Assembly (NCBI GenBank): GCA_030063045.1
Contig: JAQSEB010000054.1
Location: 806,001-870,000 of the forward strand
Length of the DNA stretch: 64,000 nt
Source: Pratylenchus scribneri
Lineage: Eukaryota > Nematoda > Chromadorea > Rhabditida > Pratylenchidae
Direction of reading: 5' to 3'
Within the stretch, counting starts at the first letter, position 1, and each line of letters begins with the position of its first letter. Made by a program: the position numbers and the translations under genes. The notes below the pieces were generated by a model, which did not search any database, was not told where the DNA came from, and saw nothing but the letters and a program-made list of their open reading frames with translations. Positions 1,056-56,100 of the stretch are shown piece by piece.

Positions 1056-3548
1056 ATGGACAATTCTGATGAAGATGTGCAGTCGGAAAATGGAGAAAAC
1101 GCCGAAGGAATAAATGACGAACCAGCAGAAGTGCACATGATTGAGGACGAAGAATGGGCGGATTCATACACGGTTTATGGCGATGACGAAGAGGAAGAGG
1201 TCGGTTGTTTTAATGGATTTTCAAATTATAAATTTAAATTTTAGATAAGCCAGCATGAACGGGCAGATCACTCGATTGCCAGAATACACGCTCACGAAAA
1301 GGATGTTTTTTGCCTGGCAATTTCGCCGAATGGAAGCTACCTTGCTTCCGGCTCCGAAGTATTTTCTTTTTAATTTACTTGTTAATCCAACTTTTTAGGA
1401 TGATACAGTCGCTGTTTGGAATTTGAGGGAAGAAAGTGCTTTGCAATTGCAAGGTTTATTAATTTAATCCACAAAATACAATAATAATTCATTGTTTAGG
1501 CGGCAGTCCACTCATACACATCAAAGGCAAACACATCGATTCGGTGCATTGTTTGGCGTGGAATGCAAATAGTAATTTACTTGGTTAGTTCCAATCTAGA
1601 GAATAGTAAATATTTAATAATTATTTAATTCAGCAAGTGGCGATATGGCTGGACGAATTTTGTGCATTCCAATGCCACCAATTGATGGCATTGATTCACT
1701 TTTAATGGTTAATAATTAATATTAATTCAATTTTAATTATTATTTCAGATTGAAGATTGTCAAAATAATGTGCCATCCCAAGAGGATGATGAGGAAAATA
1801 GTTTTGGGCAAACGTAGAGAATTGTGGTCCCGCCGAATTTTTTTTTTAAAAATAAGGGAATCTCATTTTTAGGGGTAATCGATGCTGCTGAGCACGAATC
1901 TGAGCTCAGATTTTTGATATCTTACAATCTTGGTAAGATAATGCCAACTTTTACCAAGATAAAGCAAAGGGGGGACCAAGGGCATTTTTGGTGAAAATTT
2001 TTGTAGGGCCAATATATAGCTCAATCAACGCAGCTCGTCGAGAGGAATCGAATGGTACTATTTTTATTGAATAATATTGCGATATAGGCAAGTTAGACGT
2101 CAAAATATCTTACCAAGACAAATATTTCTTTTGTCATAACTCTCCAATAATTGAATATTATCTCATAAAAATAGTACCATTCGATTCCTCTCGATGAGCT
2201 GCGTTGATTGAGCTATATATTGGCCCTACAAAAATTTTCACCAAAAATGCCCTTGGTCCCCCCCCTTTGCTTTATCTTGGTAAAAGTTGGCATTATCTTA
2301 CCAAGATTGTAAGATATCAAAAATCTGAGCTCAGAATCGTGTTCTACGCACCCGATTACCCTTAGAAATGTGTTTCCCTTATTTTTAAATTTAAAACCGG
2401 GCGGGACCACAATTCTCTACGTTTGCCTAGTTTTGAGCAAATTCGTTGGATTTTATGGCACAGTTCTGTTGAAGGAATTCTTTTTGCTGGCTGCGGGGAT
2501 GGTTCAATATGGATGTGGCTCATTTCAAGGCAACAACAAAAAATTTGTGTGAATCAATCCAAGGTTTGAATTTACATTTTTTCACAAAATGTTTTTAAAA
2601 ATTCAATTTTTAGGTATTCATCGCCAATTCAAATGCTCCTTGTGTTTCTGCCCAATTACTGTCCGACACCAAACATTTAATCGCCGCTTATGAGGACAAA
2701 TTTGTTCGACTTTGGAATTTGAAAGAGGCCAATTCCACTGAAATTCAATTGGAAGAAGAATGCATTGGCGGTGTAATGGACATCAAAGAGGGCCTTGTTG
2801 CAATTGGTTAGCTTAATTTAAACAAAATATTCGTAAATAATCGATTCAGGTTGTTCAAATGGACAGACTGCATTGGTCAGCACAAATTCTGCCAATTTGA
2901 GACTGCTTCGCACCTTTCAATCTCCTTTAAATGAAGTTGGAGAAAAAACACGAAAAGTGGTGAAAATGGAAGAAGATGAACAAAAAACAAATGAAAATGA
3001 AGAAAGCAACAGTGTTGAATGCGTTTGTTTTGCACCTTCCAATCAGCCATGGCTCGCGGTTGGCACATCAAATGAACTTTTGACTGTTTTCGACTATGAA
3101 CGCGGCCAAATTCGATATCGATGTGAAGCTGGTCAACGAGAGAGCCGAGGCGGTTTGTTGACACGCGGTAAATTTTAAATAATAATTTAAATTGGCTGGA
3201 ATTAATCAAAATACGAATTTAAGGTGAAGCCTTGATCAATTTAATTTGGCATTTTGGCTCAAACAATTCAATTTCGCTTATTTCTGCCACCGTGGACGGC
3301 ACCATTCATGTTTGGGATGGGAAAAATGGCGAATTGAAAGCCGGCAATAATAATTACTCTGTGGTAAATTTTAATTAATTTTAATTTCCACCAAAATTAA
3401 ATTCATTTTTAAGGTATTTTTGGGTGGCGACGATGAAAGTTTCTCCATGGTCAAATGGGAAGATGCTGACAAAAATCGAGTATTCTTATTCACTGGATGT
3501 TCAGCTGGTTCCATTCGAATATTTCAACTTCCCCAAAATATTTGTTAA
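1056..3548 (+). CDS. AAMP/SQT1-like WD40-repeat protein, 11 exons
   Basis: Exons: 1056-1199, 1245-1358, 1399-1453, 1500-1583, 1634-1707, 1749-1813, 2431-2563, 2614-2806, 2850-3167, 3224-3363, 3414-3548, giving 484 codons plus stop. The protein has an acidic N-terminus (EDEEWADSYTVYGDDEEEE) and then WD40 blades with SGSEDDTVAVWNL, SGDMAGRI, AGCGDGSIWMW, AAYEDKFVRLWNL and SATVDGTIHVWDG. The order and the ESNSVE...FAP linker match angio-associated migratory cell protein (AAMP), whose yeast relative Sqt1 is a chaperone of ribosomal protein uL16; a cytosolic scaffold or chaperone role follows from the family. Exon 6 is broken by a foldback element (1807-2427). The model treats most of it as an intron (1814-2430), which keeps the frame and adds four codons. 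Other introns are about 40-60 bp. If that intron is not spliced, the frame ends at a TAG (1815-1817) at the element's left end and the allele is broken. Confidence 0.9.
1807..2427. mobile_element. Foldback transposon in an AAMP exon, 8-bp TSD
   Basis: The element is a 621-bp near-perfect inverted repeat. Arms of roughly 250 bp (1807 to about 2063 and about 2171 to 2427) flank a loop of about 100 bp. The ends begin GGCAAACGTAGAGAATTG and finish with its reverse complement. A perfect 8-bp duplication, TAGTTTTG, flanks it (1799-1806 and 2428-2435). Deleting the element plus one duplication copy restores an open WD40 frame (ENSFEQIRW). An 8-bp duplication suggests mobilisation by a hAT- or P-type transposase; no transposase is encoded. 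A GT at 1814 and the AG at 2429-2430 could make it an intron. Confidence 0.93.
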
Positions 3549-11732: not shown

Positions 11733-12715
11733 TCAGAATAATTCCGCTTGGCGAACATAGAATAATTCCGCCTGGCGAACTTAGAATAATTCCGCTTATA
11801 ATTCCGCCTGGCGAACATAGAATAATTCCGCCTGGCGAACTTAGAATAATTCCGCCTGGCGAACTTAGAATAATTCCGCCTGGCTAACATAGAATAATTC
11901 CGCCTGGCGAACTTAGAATAATTCCGCCTGGCGAACTTAGAATAATTCCGCCTGGCGAACTTAGAATAATTCCGCCTGGCGAACTTAGAATAATTCCGCC
12001 TGGCGAAATTAGAATAATTCCGCCTGGCGAACTTAGAATAATTCCGCCTGGCTAACATAGAATAATTCCGCCTGGCGAACTTAGAATAATTCCGCCTGGC
12101 GAACTTAGAATAATTCCGCCTGGCGAACTTAGAATAATTCCGCCTGGCGAACTTAGAATAATTCCGCCTGGCGAAATTAGAATAATTCCGCCTGACGAAC
12201 TTAGAATAATTCCGCCTGGCGAACATAGAATAATTCCGCCTGGCGAACTTAGAATAATTCCGCCTGGCGAACTTAGAATAATTCCGCCTGGCGAACTTAG
12301 AATAATTCCGCCTGGCGAACATAGAATAATTCCGCCTGGCGAACTTAGAATAATTCCGCCTGGCGAACTTAGAATAATTCCGCCTGGCTAACATAGAATA
12401 ATTCCGCCTGGCGAACTTAGAATAATTCCGCCTGGCGAACTTAGAATAATTCCGCCTGGCGAACTTAGAATAATTCCGCCTGGCGAACATAGAATAATTC
12501 CGCCTGGCGAACTTAGAATAATTCCGCCTGGCGAACTTAGAATAATTCCGCCTGGCGAACTTAGAATAATTCCACCTGGCGAACTTAGAATAATTCCGCC
12601 TGGCGAACTTAGAATAATTCCGCCTGGCGAACTTAAAATAATTCCGCCTGGCGAATTTAGAATAATTCCGCCTGGCGAATTTAGAATAATTCCGCCTGGT
12701 CAACTTAGAATAAAA
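11733..12715 (+). repeat. 24-bp satellite array, about 40 units
   Basis: Tandem units of 24 bp built around AATTCCGCCTGGCGAACTTA, about 980 bp in all. Variant units recur with a 168-bp (seven-unit) period: TGGCTAACAT begins at 11881, 12049 and 12385 (with TGGCGAACAT at 12217), TGGCGAAATT at 12001 and 12169, and TGGCGAACAT at 12313 and 12481. This shows higher-order amplification. Because 24 is a multiple of three, the array is open in more than one frame; the long minus-strand frame (RNYSKFAR repeats) is not evidence of a gene. The array separates the C6-domain gene and OAT, which are transcribed toward each other. Confidence 0.95.
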
Positions 12716-35089: not shown

Positions 35090-35586
35090 CCACCAGGTTA
35101 GAATAATTCCGCCTGGTGAACTTAGAATAATTCCGCCTGGCGAACTTAGAATAATTCCGCCTGGCGAACTTAGAATAATTCCGCCTGGCGAACTTAGAAT
35201 AATTCCGCCTGGCGAACTTAGAATAATTCCGCCTGGCGAACTTAGAATAATTCCGCCTGATGAACTTAGAATAATTCCGCCTGGCGAACTTAGAATAATT
35301 CCGCCTGGCGAACTTAGAATAATTCCGCCTGGCGAACTTAGAATAATTCCGCCTGGCGAACTTAGAATAATTCCGCCTGGCGAACTTAGAATAATTCCGC
35401 CTGTTTTAATTCCGCGTGGCGAACTTAGAATAATTCCGCCTGGCGAACTTAGAATAATTCCGCCTGGCAAACTTAGAATAATTCCGCCTGGAGAACTTAG
35501 AATAATTCCGCCTGGCGAACTTAGAATAATTCCGCCTGGCGAACTTAGAATAATTCCGCCTGGCGAACTTAGAATAATTCCGCCTA
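35090..35586 (+). repeat. 24-bp satellite array, about 20 units
   Basis: Same unit as at 11.7 kb, same orientation. A short spacer unit (CTGTTTTAATTCCGCG) near 35401 shifts the phase. The array ends about 180 bp upstream of the cyanase start. Confidence 0.95.
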
Positions 35587-41133: not shown

Positions 41134-44100
41134 ATGGAGGAATTGAATGAGGCCAGAAAACAAGCTAAACGCTTTGGCCAACTTTTCCAATTGATTGGTG
41201 CTGGATTTTGGTAAGCCATTTTTTGAATAGAAGTGCCTACTTTTTAATTTAATGCTTTCAATTGCTGACAAAGTTTCTGGATATTTTTAGATAAATAGTA
41301 CAAAATTTATTTTAAAAATAACAATTAAAAAGACAATTTGATTTTAAACCAAACTGAATGATCAAAAAACACTTAGATTTATTCATTATTCTATTTTTCG
41401 CCTTATCTCAGTAATTTTTCAGCTATTTTCGAAGGAGAATATGAAAAATAAAATCCTAAAATTCCATCTTTGCCCAATTTGTCTTAAAAAATTAAATCAA
41501 AGGGTTCTAGAGAATATGATCCTAAAAATTTGATTTTTGCCATCGGCACTTATATCGTATACATACAGCAGTACAGTGATTTGGGGCAATCAGTCATTGG
41601 AAGAAAAATAAAAAATATTAAAGTTTATTAAAAGTCAATTTCCGCAATAATAATCCTTCGTTTCCCAAGGGAATATATTGCTTTGATCGAAGAGCAGCAT
41701 GATCAGCCAGAACAGCAATTGGAGGAGACGGAGGATGAAAGGCCAAGGAATGAGAATGGAGAAGAAGCCGCAGATGAAGATGTAATTGACAACAAACCAT
41801 CTTCCTCCTCCGCGTTCCCATTTCCCGTTCAATATGATTCACATTCGCACGATCAACCATTCGATGATAATCAAAAGCAGGTCTGCTTGGATGATTGCTT
41901 TTCCCATTCATTTATCCTACTTTTTTCAATTAATTTATTCTTTCAAATTTTAGCTAATAAATATGGCCCGATGGCCAACGGAATTGGAAAAGGGTGATCG
42001 CATGTTAATGGCTGAGAATCATCGACTTTATAAATTGCATGCCGAAAGATTGGCGAAATTGCAAAGAGATTATGCAAAATGGCGAATGAAATTGGAGAAA
42101 GGTGTGTCTCTGTTTTAAAGTAATTTAACAATTAATGAAGTCTCTACTAATCAAATTTCATTTTAATTTATGCGAATTTATCAGACGCATTTATTCATTT
42201 TATATAAACGTTAGAACGGTAGACATGAAGAATGCCTTAAAGTCCATCCCATTTAATCATTGAAATTCATTAATTCCTTCATTTTCAATTTCTTTCTCAT
42301 TTTTTTATTATCATTCCATTTGATCAAAAATTAATTTCTACTATTTAAATAGAATTCCGAATAATTCCATCTGGTCAATTTTTAGAATAATTCCACTTGT
42401 TTTAATTCCGCCTTGCGAACTTAGAATATTTCCGCCTTTTTTAATTCCGCCTGGCGTACTTGGAATAGTTCCGCCTGTTTTAATTCCGCCTGGCGTACTT
42501 GGAATAATTCCGCCTGTTTTAATTCCGCCTGGCGAACTTAGAATAGTTCCGCCTGGCGTACTTGGAATAGTTCCGCCTGTTTTAATTCCGCCTGGCGAAC
42601 TTAGAATAATTCCGCCTGTTTTAATTCCGCCTGGCGAACTTAGAATAATTCCGCCTGGCGAACTTACTTAGAATAATTCCGCCTGTTTTAATTCCGCCTG
42701 GCGAACTTAGAATAATTCCGCCTGGCGAACTTACTTAGAATAATTCCGCCTGTTTTAATTCCGCCTGGCGAACTTAGAATAGTTCCGCCTGGCGTACTTG
42801 GAATAGTTCCGCCTGTTTTAATTCCGCCTGGCGAACTTAGAATAATTCCGCCTGTTTTAATTCCGCCTGGCGAACTTAGAATAATTCCGCCTGGCGAACT
42901 TACTTAGAATAATTCCGCCTGTTTTAATTCCGCCTGGCGTACTTGGAATAGTTCCGCCTGTTTTAATTCCGCCTGGCGAACTTAGAATAATTCCGCCTGG
43001 CGAACTTACTTAGAATAATTCCGCCTGTTAAAGATAATGTTTTAGCTTGCTAGATGAGTTAAGCTTATAGAATTTTTTATAACAATGCCTAATTTAACCT
43101 TAAAATTTTGCGCGGAACAAAAGTTGTTAACTAAAGTAATTGCCACCATCCCGAAAATATTATATGGCCTCAAGAGGTTTCCCTACCTTTCCATTTTGGC
43201 CGCACACTTATGATCGAGTGAAACACCACATTTTTAGCAAATGCAATAAAAAAAGAAGGGAGGGGGTTTCGGCTTCTCAACTACCCTCCGATCCAAAACA
43301 ACTTGTTTTCGCATGCCGCAATAATTGCACCCTTCCTCTCTGCCTTTTCCTCCATCCTACATCCAAAAATTGCATTTCGCTCTTCCTCTTATGTTTCATG
43401 TTCCATCCACAATTTTGTTGCGCAATTTTTTATTTCCCAAAATTTTAATTTCAAATAGAAAATATTTATTTTTATTTTTTATTAAAAATTGTTGGCTAGC
43501 CAAATTTTGAATAATTCCATATCTAAGCAATCTTTTATGCTTTTAATAAGACTTTTTCCTTTGACTATATCTTTCAGGAGGAAAATTTGATAACTAAATG
43601 ACTGATCAAAAATTAATTAGCCAGAAGTTATGGCCAAAAAACAAAGCCCATTTATAGTCATATTTTTCCGCGTCAAAACTTTTTGAAATTTTTATTAAAT
43701 TCACTAATTCTTTCTTTAATTTGTTCATTCCAATTCCAAATCAGAGGCTATAAAATTGTATTATAATTTATTAAATTTAAAGGAGCTAATATCAAATGAA
43801 AAATAGATTTGATGCGCAATTTCAATCCATCATATTTCAAAATTGCCCATACATTGTACAATTTACCTTTTCATCCTTTCTTTCCATTTAATTTCTTCAT
43901 TTTGCTCCCATTTTTTGCTGACTAATCGTCTGCTTGGATGGAAGGATTTCGAATTTAGTATTCTGTGGATGATTTAGATGGTCCACGGAGATGGGGAAAA
44001 GCAAAAATACGGCCGATGATGAGCAATCCAAAAACAAAATGGCCAAACCAACAAGGGAAAATGTTGACCATAGATGAAGGCCCATGAAAATAACATTTTG

Positions 44101-53100: not shown

Positions 53101-56100
53101 ATATTAAACGAATTGATTTGTCCATGAAATCCGCTATATTTTAATCTATTCAAAAAAATTGTTTCAATATCATTTTTGAATGGTGCAATCGAAAATTCCC
53201 AGTAAACACAATGTGAACGCGCAAATTCTCCCTTTTATATTTTCGCTTGGAGCCAATCCATTGTCCAACAATATTCCATTCCATCCCCACGGCCATTTCC
53301 CATTCCCCTTCTCCTTCCCACTTTCAATTTCAATTGTTTGGCCATTTTGTTGTGACGATGACGAAGCGGCAAAATCAGCAAAAAAAAGCATTTCAATGAG
53401 AATATGACGGACGAGGACTTTTGTATGAAATGAGTAAAATAGGGAAAAGAATGGTGGTTGAAGGTGGTCGTCGACGGCGGTCCAATCCAAAAGAAAATAG
53501 GAGAAAAGTGGAAATTTTGTGAGGGAAGGGCGCGGATTGTGAAAAGAAACGCAAGAAGGAAATTGTTGAGCAATTCAATAGGAAATGAGAATATTTTATT
53601 TTTTTATTTTTTTTACTCTCTTCAAATCGAAACAAAACAAAAACATTCAATATTGTCTATTGAGTACCTTGGGCCATTCTTTTGGCCATAGCTGGAGAAG
53701 AGGCAATCAATTCAGGCGTTTTGCCATTTGAAAGCCCTAAATGTCCTCTAAAAATGGCTTTTGTAATTGCTTTGAAATGTAATTAGTTAATAAAATAAGT
53801 GGCTTTTCCGTTTTCCCTTTCTTATTAGAAAATACAGGTTTATTACATTCAAAGACTTGTAAGCATTCCTGAATTTTAAAAAATTAAAAAAATGCCTCTT
53901 TTTAGAGAACACTTTCAGCTCTCCAAAAGTATATTACCTTTCAAAATTGGCTGCCTTCTTATTGAGTTATGGCCATAAGAAAGGCCCTAGCAACATAATT
54001 ATTTTATCTCTCTTACATAGCATCAAAGAGACCGCCAATTCGCCGCTATAAAAACATTCCGATTTTTATTACCTCAAATTTTGGGCCCCAATATTGAGCA
54101 AAATTTAATTGGTTTCGTTGATAATTTTCCACACCACATCCAAATGTACAAAATTGTCCATAAATTCCCTTCTTTTCTTCAATCGAATTTACTCCATAAA
54201 CCAAAGCTAAAGCTAATAAAATGTGGACGAATGGGGCGAATGTTTGTGATTGGTGGATCATTAAATATCATAAAAACTTGCCAAACTCTCGCCATTCACC
54301 ACAATTCCCGTTATTCTTCCCACTTTTGCGCAATTTTATGGCGAATTTCTTCTACTTTCCTCATCTAATAATTCCATTCTCTTCCTCCCTTTAACACCCC
54401 ACAATTTGGGGGTGGGCCAAGTTTTCCAAAGCACAATTCTTGAGGCAATAAAATTTTTTAACTACTTTTAGTGCCATTTTGAAGAACAAAGTTTTTGATA
54501 ATTAGATGGAATATTTTTTTAGAAAAAATGGTTCTTCTTTTATGGAATGGCTTCTTGAATATGATTTACCATTTTCCAACACTTTTTCTTATTTTTTTGC
54601 CATAATTCCGTGATTTTTTACTATCCATTTGTTTTCTATATCATTTAATAGATCTGACCCTGCACATTCATTTTTAATTAAAATTTGTCGAAAAAATTCT
54701 AAAACTTTATAATGCCTCGCGCACTAATGTCCTTTACTCCAAATTTTACAATTAATTTCTTACAAGTTTTCAGATTCATTTCGTCTATTCCCCTCGGCAA
54801 ATCCCTTATTGCATTCATTAGCTACAAATTTAAGCTCCTCTCGATCAAAATTTTCTCGATTTGCTCCTCCTTTGCTTTTTTGCCGTTGCCCTTCGCCGCA
54901 AAGAAAAAATCGCCTATATCGGCCACAGTCCATTAATTCCCTTTCGAAAAGCAAAGGAGAAGGGAAATGTAAGTGGAAATTGGCGCATTTTTGTGGATAA
55001 AATTTTGGAATTTTTCCAATACAGTTGATCGAGCAAAAAGTCAAAGCGATTTGGATTTGACAAAAAGTGGTGTTGAAAAGGAAGAAGGAGGAGAAGGCAA
55101 AGAATCATTTCGAGCAATTCGGGCAGCAATGACCGCAATTGAGGCAGAAATGTGCGGAATGTTGGGCAGATTGGAATTCCAAGTTCAAGGTAGAAGAAAT
55201 TTCTTGTTTGAATAATTAGAATAATTTATCGGTTTAGTTAGTAAATAATTCCGCCTGTTTGACTAAGTTTTAATTCCGCCTGGCGAACTTAAAATAATTC
55301 CGCCTGTTTGACTAAGTTTTAATTCCGCCTGGCGAACTTAAAATAATTCCGCCTGTTTGACTAAGTTTTAATTCCGCCTGGCGAACTTAGAATAATTCCG
55401 CTTGGTGAACTTAGAATAATTCCGCCTGGCGAACTTAGAATAATTCCGCCTGGCGAACTTAGAATAATTCCGCCTAGTGAACTTAGAATAATTCCGCCTG
55501 GCGAACTTAGAATAATTCCGCCTGGCGAACTTAGAATAATTCCGCCTGGCGAACTTAGAATAATTCCGCCTGGTGAACTTAGAATAATTCCGCCTGGCGA
55601 ACTTAGAATAATTCCGCCTGGCGAACTTAGAATAATTCCGCCTGGCGAACTTAGAATAATTCCGCCTAGTGAACTTAGAATAATTCCGCCTGGCGAACTT
55701 AGAATAATTCCGCCTGGCGAACTTAGAATAATTCCGCCTAGTGAACTTAGAATAATTCCGCCTGGCGAACTTAGAATAATTCCGCCTGGTGAACTTAGAA
55801 TAATTCCGCCTGGCGAACTTAGAATAATTCCGCCTGTTTTAATTCCGCCTGTCGAACTTAGATAATTCCGCTTGCTTTAATTCCGCCTGGTTAAGAGAAA
55901 AATTGACCATTTCCAGTTTCTTTAATTTAATTATGTATTTAATTTTTCATTTAGGGCTAGAGGAAAGATACTATTTTCATAAAATATCCTTTAGAAGCTT
56001 GATGTGGCCTAAGATAAAATTCCAGAAAACAAGTTACCGAGGATTTCTTCCCTTAAGAACACGGAAATTTAATGAGTTTTCATTTCACTGAGAATCCTCT

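Follow-up and report, generated by a model that had tools for sequence, protein, structure and literature searches.

The term introner denotes an element whose copies have turned into introns in numerous genes. Tc1 is an autonomous transposon that duplicates TA, and Rushforth and Anderson (1996) is said to be a further reference on Tc1-style rescue in C. elegans. In this nematode, Tc1 in exon 7 of dpy-19 is removed from the pre-mRNA, likely via a cryptic splice site and with a frameshift, according to passages of PMC12405876. Passages of PMC9860276 describe introner families that carry the 5′ splice site while co-opting the 3′ site, as well as an Aureococcus introner that adds 12 bases to the transcript, four from the element and eight from the duplication. 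The literature on introners (titles and abstract openings, mainly open-access) yielded no description of a nematode introner; PMC9169325 analyses intron loss and gain in nematodes and refers to introner elements as one way in which introns arise, and the sections of it used here name no nematode introner. As for transposon classes, Merlin elements have 5′-GG ends, inverted repeats of 24–462 bp and 8- or 9-bp duplications (passages of PMC8101967), while the Tm1 Mutator/Foldback elements of root-knot nematodes are characterised, in excerpts from PMC3169594, by 9-bp duplications, composite tandem-repeat ends, A1/A2 motifs, and the terminal motifs CGGTTAA and CCTACCC.

In the window (the whole 64,000-nt stretch of Pratylenchus scribneri DNA analysed here), exon 6 of a WD40 gene is split by a 621-bp element at 1807–2427, whose nested inverted repeats fold back nearly end to end. 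Its outer arms (1807–1974 and 2260–2427) are 89% complementary and its inner arms (1969–2095 and 2137–2263) 91%, with a 41-nt spacer between the inner arms, and an exact 8-bp direct repeat, TAGTTTTG, flanks the element at 1799–1806 and 2428–2435. The first-pass annotation had placed a 621-bp inverted-repeat element with a perfect 8-bp duplication inside a coding exon, and re-derivation of the coordinates and of the repeat confirmed this. The coding sequence of the gene occupies 1056–3548 on the + strand; its product has a Pfam WD40 match, the matches being WD40 beta-propeller ones only, and we take the gene to be AAMP-like. Deleting the element and one duplication rebuilds the WD40 frame, as had been claimed, with exon 6 in frame (...EENSFEQIRWIL..., the exon reading EENSFEQIRWILWHSS). 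The same annotation had proposed that the element is spliced out as an intron at 1814–2430; the GT at 1814–1815 and the AG of 2422–2430 are indeed present, and the arithmetic is correct, since this hypothetical splice would give ENSFGQTFEQIRW, with 12 additional bases, in frame and stop-free (the exon reading EENSFGQTFEQIRW). The coding frame 1056–3548 is open under both versions, that is, with the element excised or with 1814–2430 spliced. The features of the locus are as follows (a slash within a site marks the splice junction).

1056–1707, + strand: exons 1–5 (1056–1199, 1245–1358, 1399–1453, 1500–1583, 1634–1707) of the WD40 gene, presumably AAMP-like; open frame across frame-checked introns, WD40 Pfam match, counterpart exons in both other gene copies.
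1749–1806, + strand: left part of exon 6, its last bases being the left TAGTTTTG; uninterrupted exon in the homeologs.
1799–1806, unstranded: left target-site duplication TAGTTTTG; exact direct repeat.
1807–2427, unstranded: foldback (hairpin) non-autonomous DNA transposon of 621 bp, with terminal sequence GGCAAACGTAGAGAATTGTGGTCCCGC at both ends; inverted repeats, family search, identical copies elsewhere, RNA fold.
1814–1815, + strand: proposed 5′ splice GT, AAAC/GTAGAG, weak and in a predicted stem; splice scores, RNA fold.
1872, + strand: strong cryptic acceptor within the element, TCTCATTTTTAG/GG, its AG ending at 1872, score 8.0; splice scores.
1933–1934, + strand: strong cryptic donor within the element, CTTG/GTAAGATA, score 7.5; splice scores.
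2422–2430, + strand: proposed 3′ splice site TTTGCCTAG, under every native acceptor used; splice scores.
2428–2435, unstranded: right target-site duplication TAGTTTTG; exact direct repeat.
2436–2563, + strand: right part of exon 6; uninterrupted exon in the homeologs.
2614–3548, + strand: exons 7–10 (2614–2806, 2850–3167, 3224–3363, 3414–3548), stop codon 3546–3548; open frame, homeolog exons.

Elsewhere, the window holds a 24-bp tandem repeat with unit ATAATTCCGCCTGGCGAACTTAGA in four arrays (11798–12713, 35098–35585, 42481–43029 and 55271–55836).

A DNA search of the species' own genome (227 Mb, 276 contigs), in which the best 40 of 1020 candidates were scored, gave at least 40 distinct places of the family, each in both orientations. 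The condition that other copies share these ends holds for many of them: searching the genome for the 27-base end with up to three mismatches gave 117 occurrences versus 0 for the reversed control pattern, and a 23-base end pattern spanning three subfamilies has 170 exact occurrences. Inspection of 59 loci (39 plus 20), equivalent to 58 distinct sites since L011 and L070 are one site, revealed an exact 8-bp duplication at 46 of the 58 and a 9-bp one at one further site. Among the first 39 loci the 8-bp duplication is exact at 34, carries one mismatch at L007, measures 9 bp at L045 and is unclean at L011, L012 and L032; L011 is a partial view of L070, where the duplication is exact. The 45 duplications used in the target-site statistics, from which L015 was dropped as a duplicate of L014, are W-rich at the centre. 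Two other copies are identical to the window element at 621 of 621 positions, and four further copies differ from it at 1, 1, 2 and 5 positions (gaps counted). Judged by these identities, the burst is very recent, and so is the window insertion, given the two identical copies. An older insertion was also recovered: L014 and L015 carry the element at the same place within flanks that are 95–97% alike, and their elements share 601 identical positions, with 17 mismatches and 3 gap positions, which suggests that the family was active before these segments parted and then again recently. Longer elements are present as well, of 748 bp (L051), 981 bp (L063) and 1556 bp (L070).

Both the terminal inverted repeats starting 5′-GG and the duplication length, 8 bp or, at one site, 9 bp, agree with the definition of Merlin elements. 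The genome has 62 places with a Merlin domain (PF12762; DDE_Tnp_IS1595); inspection by eye found none of them near the element's ends, among the up to 100 end places listed for each end pattern, and GGCAAACG ends were recognised at none of the three Merlin-domain loci scanned. One of these three, L081, has the ends GGTACTTG and contains at 878–2101 a 1224-bp Merlin element with GG ends, an open frame of 165 aa and an 8-bp duplication (CTCAAAAT); its family is matched with equal score, and again with a 165-aa open frame, at five more places in the genome. At C64:1999880-2029413, 17 Merlin-domain matches lie within 30 kb, apparently a cluster or tandem array. hAT elements make 8-bp duplications and have short C/TAGNG-type ends, and hAT genes are abundant too, with 150 scored matches in the genome. 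The 8-bp duplication fits a hAT origin, but the ends of the element are GGCAAACG and not of the C/TAGNG type, which goes against this assignment. Neither the Merlin-domain nor the hAT searches of the genome found an autonomous copy with the element's ends. Membership in the Tm1 Mutator/Foldback group was rejected, as the ends GGCAAACGTAG and the 8-bp duplication do not conform to the definition in the excerpts from PMC3169594. A Merlin (IS1595-like) transposase probably mobilised the element; this assignment is tentative, since the searches brought up no Merlin gene that shares its ends and the genome is rich in hAT genes as well.

A protein search of the same genome located the WD40 gene on C54 (the window), at C93:755403-757259 and at C2:3793584-3795482, and a TFIIA-gamma gene adjoins it in all three collinear segments. 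The C93 and C2 copies have counterpart exons, and both read GAGGAAAATAGTTTTGAGCAAATTCG, the exact empty site, at which TAGTTTTG occurs just once. The coding sequence is open in all three copies; their pairwise nucleotide identities are 94.2, 95.7 and 93.6%, with dS of 0.10–0.17 and pairwise dN/dS of 0.20–0.29. Unique codon changes (synonymous/non-synonymous) number 11/10 in the window copy, 11/13 in C2 and 26/19 in C93; by this count amino-acid changes are not in excess in the window copy. The open frame, the dN/dS values and the lack of such an excess suggest that ordinary constraint acted on the window copy up to recent times, in keeping with a young insertion, its state since the insertion lying outside the dN/dS signal. 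Recency alone would also predict an intact frame, and since the other two copies are empty with intact frames, selection for splicing need not be assumed. The two-gene segment is present as a collinear triplicate (C54, C2 and C93; dS 0.10–0.17), as in hybrid or polyploid lineages.

The account that we consider probable is that a near-palindromic, non-autonomous foldback transposon, with a Merlin (IS1595-like) transposase as its probable mover, inserted lately in exon 6 of one of three homeologs, namely the window copy, and that most of the message which this copy yields does not function, being either broken or mis-spliced. If the element is retained, the first in-frame stop is the TAG at 1815–1817, and translation would end at codon 180. 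Splicing at the strong cryptic acceptor or donor tested within the element, with removal of 1708–1872 or of 1933–2613, would likewise lead to stops. The loss would be tolerated owing to the two other copies, which have intact frames and are presumably expressed. This effect on the message is deduced from the DNA. The poor quality of the would-be splice sites (below) and the two empty copies make damage to one spare gene copy, not a new intron, the most likely outcome. The foldback element that interrupts the WD40 exon is itself genuine, young and clean, and an ordinary case of its kind.

To score splice sites we used 17 frame-keeping introns, left out one at a time, from the WD40 gene (9), the TFIIA-gamma gene (3) and a gene that we take to encode ornithine aminotransferase (5); the native sites score 0.8 to 8.6 (donors) and −0.3 to 12.7 (acceptors). 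An enlarged set, with homeolog introns added, comprises 26 different donors and 28 different acceptors. Either scoring rests on few introns, and spliceosomes in the cell sometimes accept poor sites. The proposed donor AAAC/GTAGAG scores −2.6 with the 17-intron set, a value equalled or exceeded by 77% of the GTs in the window; with the enlarged set it scores −1.3 versus a native minimum of −2.7, hence within range, and 65% of GTs are as good. When 1779–2455 was folded as RNA, the predicted energy was −454 kcal/mol versus −153 ± 7 in 20 shuffles (z −43), and the proposed donor GT falls within the predicted hairpin stem. Such a stem could hide the donor; we rank it as less likely that it would bring donor and acceptor together. 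Enumeration of GT-AG introns of at least 36 nt within exon 6 gave six pairs that keep the frame without a stop, of which 1814–2463 scores highest and 1814–2430 lowest.

These scores bear first on rescue of the kind described for Tc1, in which cryptic splicing would remove the element partly, imprecisely and inefficiently and leave some altered in-frame protein. The dpy-19 exon 7 insertion provides a precedent (passages of PMC12405876), and two routes can be named: removal of 1814–2463, the best-scoring of the six pairs, would cost seven codons, while a transcript that skips exon 6 altogether (186 nt once the element is discounted) would use two strong native sites and keep the frame at the cost of 62 residues. 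On the other hand, the summed score is below zero for all six frame-keeping pairs, and the donor sits in a very stable predicted stem. We regard such rescue as unlikely overall, although it is the foremost competitor of the spare-copy account.

The proposal that the insertion made an intron at once, with 1814–2430 spliced out and four codons added in the manner of an introner, fares considerably worse. The GT and AG are in place, the 12 added bases match in number those of the Aureococcus introner (passages of PMC9860276), and the reading frame of the window copy is otherwise intact, which its recency would also explain. However, the proposed acceptor, GTTTGCCTAG/TT, scores −6.6 with the 17-intron set (native minimum −0.3), a value that 81% of the window's AGs reach or exceed; with the enlarged set it scores −9.4 (native minimum −2.6), with 82% of AGs as good. 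The acceptor is therefore beneath every native one, and the donor falls at, or close to, the low end of what native donors score. With the donor also in the predicted stem and the pair ranking last of six, the scores and the fold argue against instant intron creation, and we consider it very improbable.

The wider suggestion, that the family could seed introns genome-wide, found no better footing. In both orientations of the 45 duplications, NAG opens the duplication in 5 of 90 cases versus 3.6 ± 1.9 in shuffles, which is no clear excess, and 7 of the 90 orientations would permit splicing in frame on the proposed pattern. Genome-wide, exact ends are followed by NAG at 8 of 170 occurrences. A search for same-end copies in coding exons with GT and AG so placed thus narrowed to these eight sites, and flank translations judged by eye (not gene models) gave a recognisable coding exon at the window site only. 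One of the others, L071/L059, falls on an apparent native 3′ splice site (TAG/TTCGG) in a gene with a Pfam astacin match (2.3e-13), hence astacin-like; L074 is apparently, by eye, at a native 5′ splice site (CATA/GTAAAA); and L072/L035, L075/L038, L077 and L078 are non-coding in appearance, again by eye. The copy at L002/L076 is identical to the window element and sits within an open frame of 119 codons that looks like repeats, where its duplication, CAGAAATG, would permit the same in-frame splice as at the window site. L002 has a codon score of 5.3, and 42% of random places score as high; the site is probably non-coding. The codon model itself, trained on three genes, was discarded as a coding test, as it leaves short exons inseparable from background (WD40-gene exon midpoints score 7.0–24.9, random places have a median of 4.3 and a 95% point of 20.6).

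Several copies lie at apparent splice junctions. The element at L047 (1494–2129) is inserted across an apparent native 3′ splice site, TATTTAG/G ahead of DFDEINEKLRQIEQEAEKIRA, in a gene with a weak PDB match (E 0.065). We presume this gene to be PABPN1-like. At L047 and at L059/L071 the right-hand duplication re-supplies the native acceptor, the duplication at L034 is perhaps over a native 3′ splice site as well, and at L046 (1496–2130) a native 5′ splice site, CTGAG/GTAAATTG, has apparently been duplicated (by eye). Because the duplication re-supplies the native site in such cases, an existing intron merely becomes longer, which is not intron creation. Scores above 3, 5 and 7 for 3′ splice sites occur at 4, 4 and 2 of the 45 duplications, with 4.1, 1.9 and 0.9 expected from random places (9.0, 4.2 and 1.9%); the target pattern AWWWWT almost excludes AG and was unusable as a control. 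There is thus no clear enrichment of these 45 duplications at native 3′ splice sites over chance. We consider the new-intron idea unlikely, and very improbable in its fullest form, in which a hairpin transposon of an animal, a nematode, is seen just after it converted coding sequence to an intron, with a stem of about 290 bp that draws donor and acceptor together and so lets weak sites function.

Finally, identical copies of the element elsewhere could have confused the assembler into joining the element to the exon, but the perfect 8-bp duplication, of a sequence that both homeologs carry once where the site is empty, is a hallmark of transposition and not of a misjoin, and the chance of such an artefact is practically negligible.

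As the evidence stands, this is an ordinary yet very clean young transposon in an exon. One genome holds an occupied copy and two unoccupied collinear copies that can be told apart by sequence (dS 0.10–0.17), which makes the locus a natural test of the fate of a fresh exonic insertion, and copy-specific RNA would separate the possible fates: retention, cryptic splicing, skipping and a new intron. Were the element in fact spliced, it would represent a rare animal introner at birth, measurable against its own unoccupied ancestors in the same nucleus.

Compared with described systems, the window element resembles Tm1, some members of which are miniature, in being a foldback-like element with inverted repeats, and differs from the Tm1 of the PMC3169594 excerpts in its 8-bp duplication, in its ends, GGCAAACGTAG, and in having no composite tandem-repeat ends. 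It differs from Tc1, which is autonomous and duplicates TA, in being non-autonomous, in its 8-bp duplication and in being known from DNA alone; what the two share is a DNA transposon in an exon and possible cryptic splicing. The likeness to introners lies in inverted repeats and a target-site duplication, features of many but not all introner families, in the exonic position, and in a GT in the element's end with an AG from the duplication. Unlike introners, it has poor splice sites and its family no clear excess of duplications bearing AG, and where an introner family would have many exonic copies with matching GT and AG placement, one of eight NAG-flanked sites is in a recognisable exon. At 621 bp, without a transposase and as a nearly complete palindrome, it departs from Merlin elements, with which it shares 5′-GG ends, long inverted repeats and 8-bp duplications.
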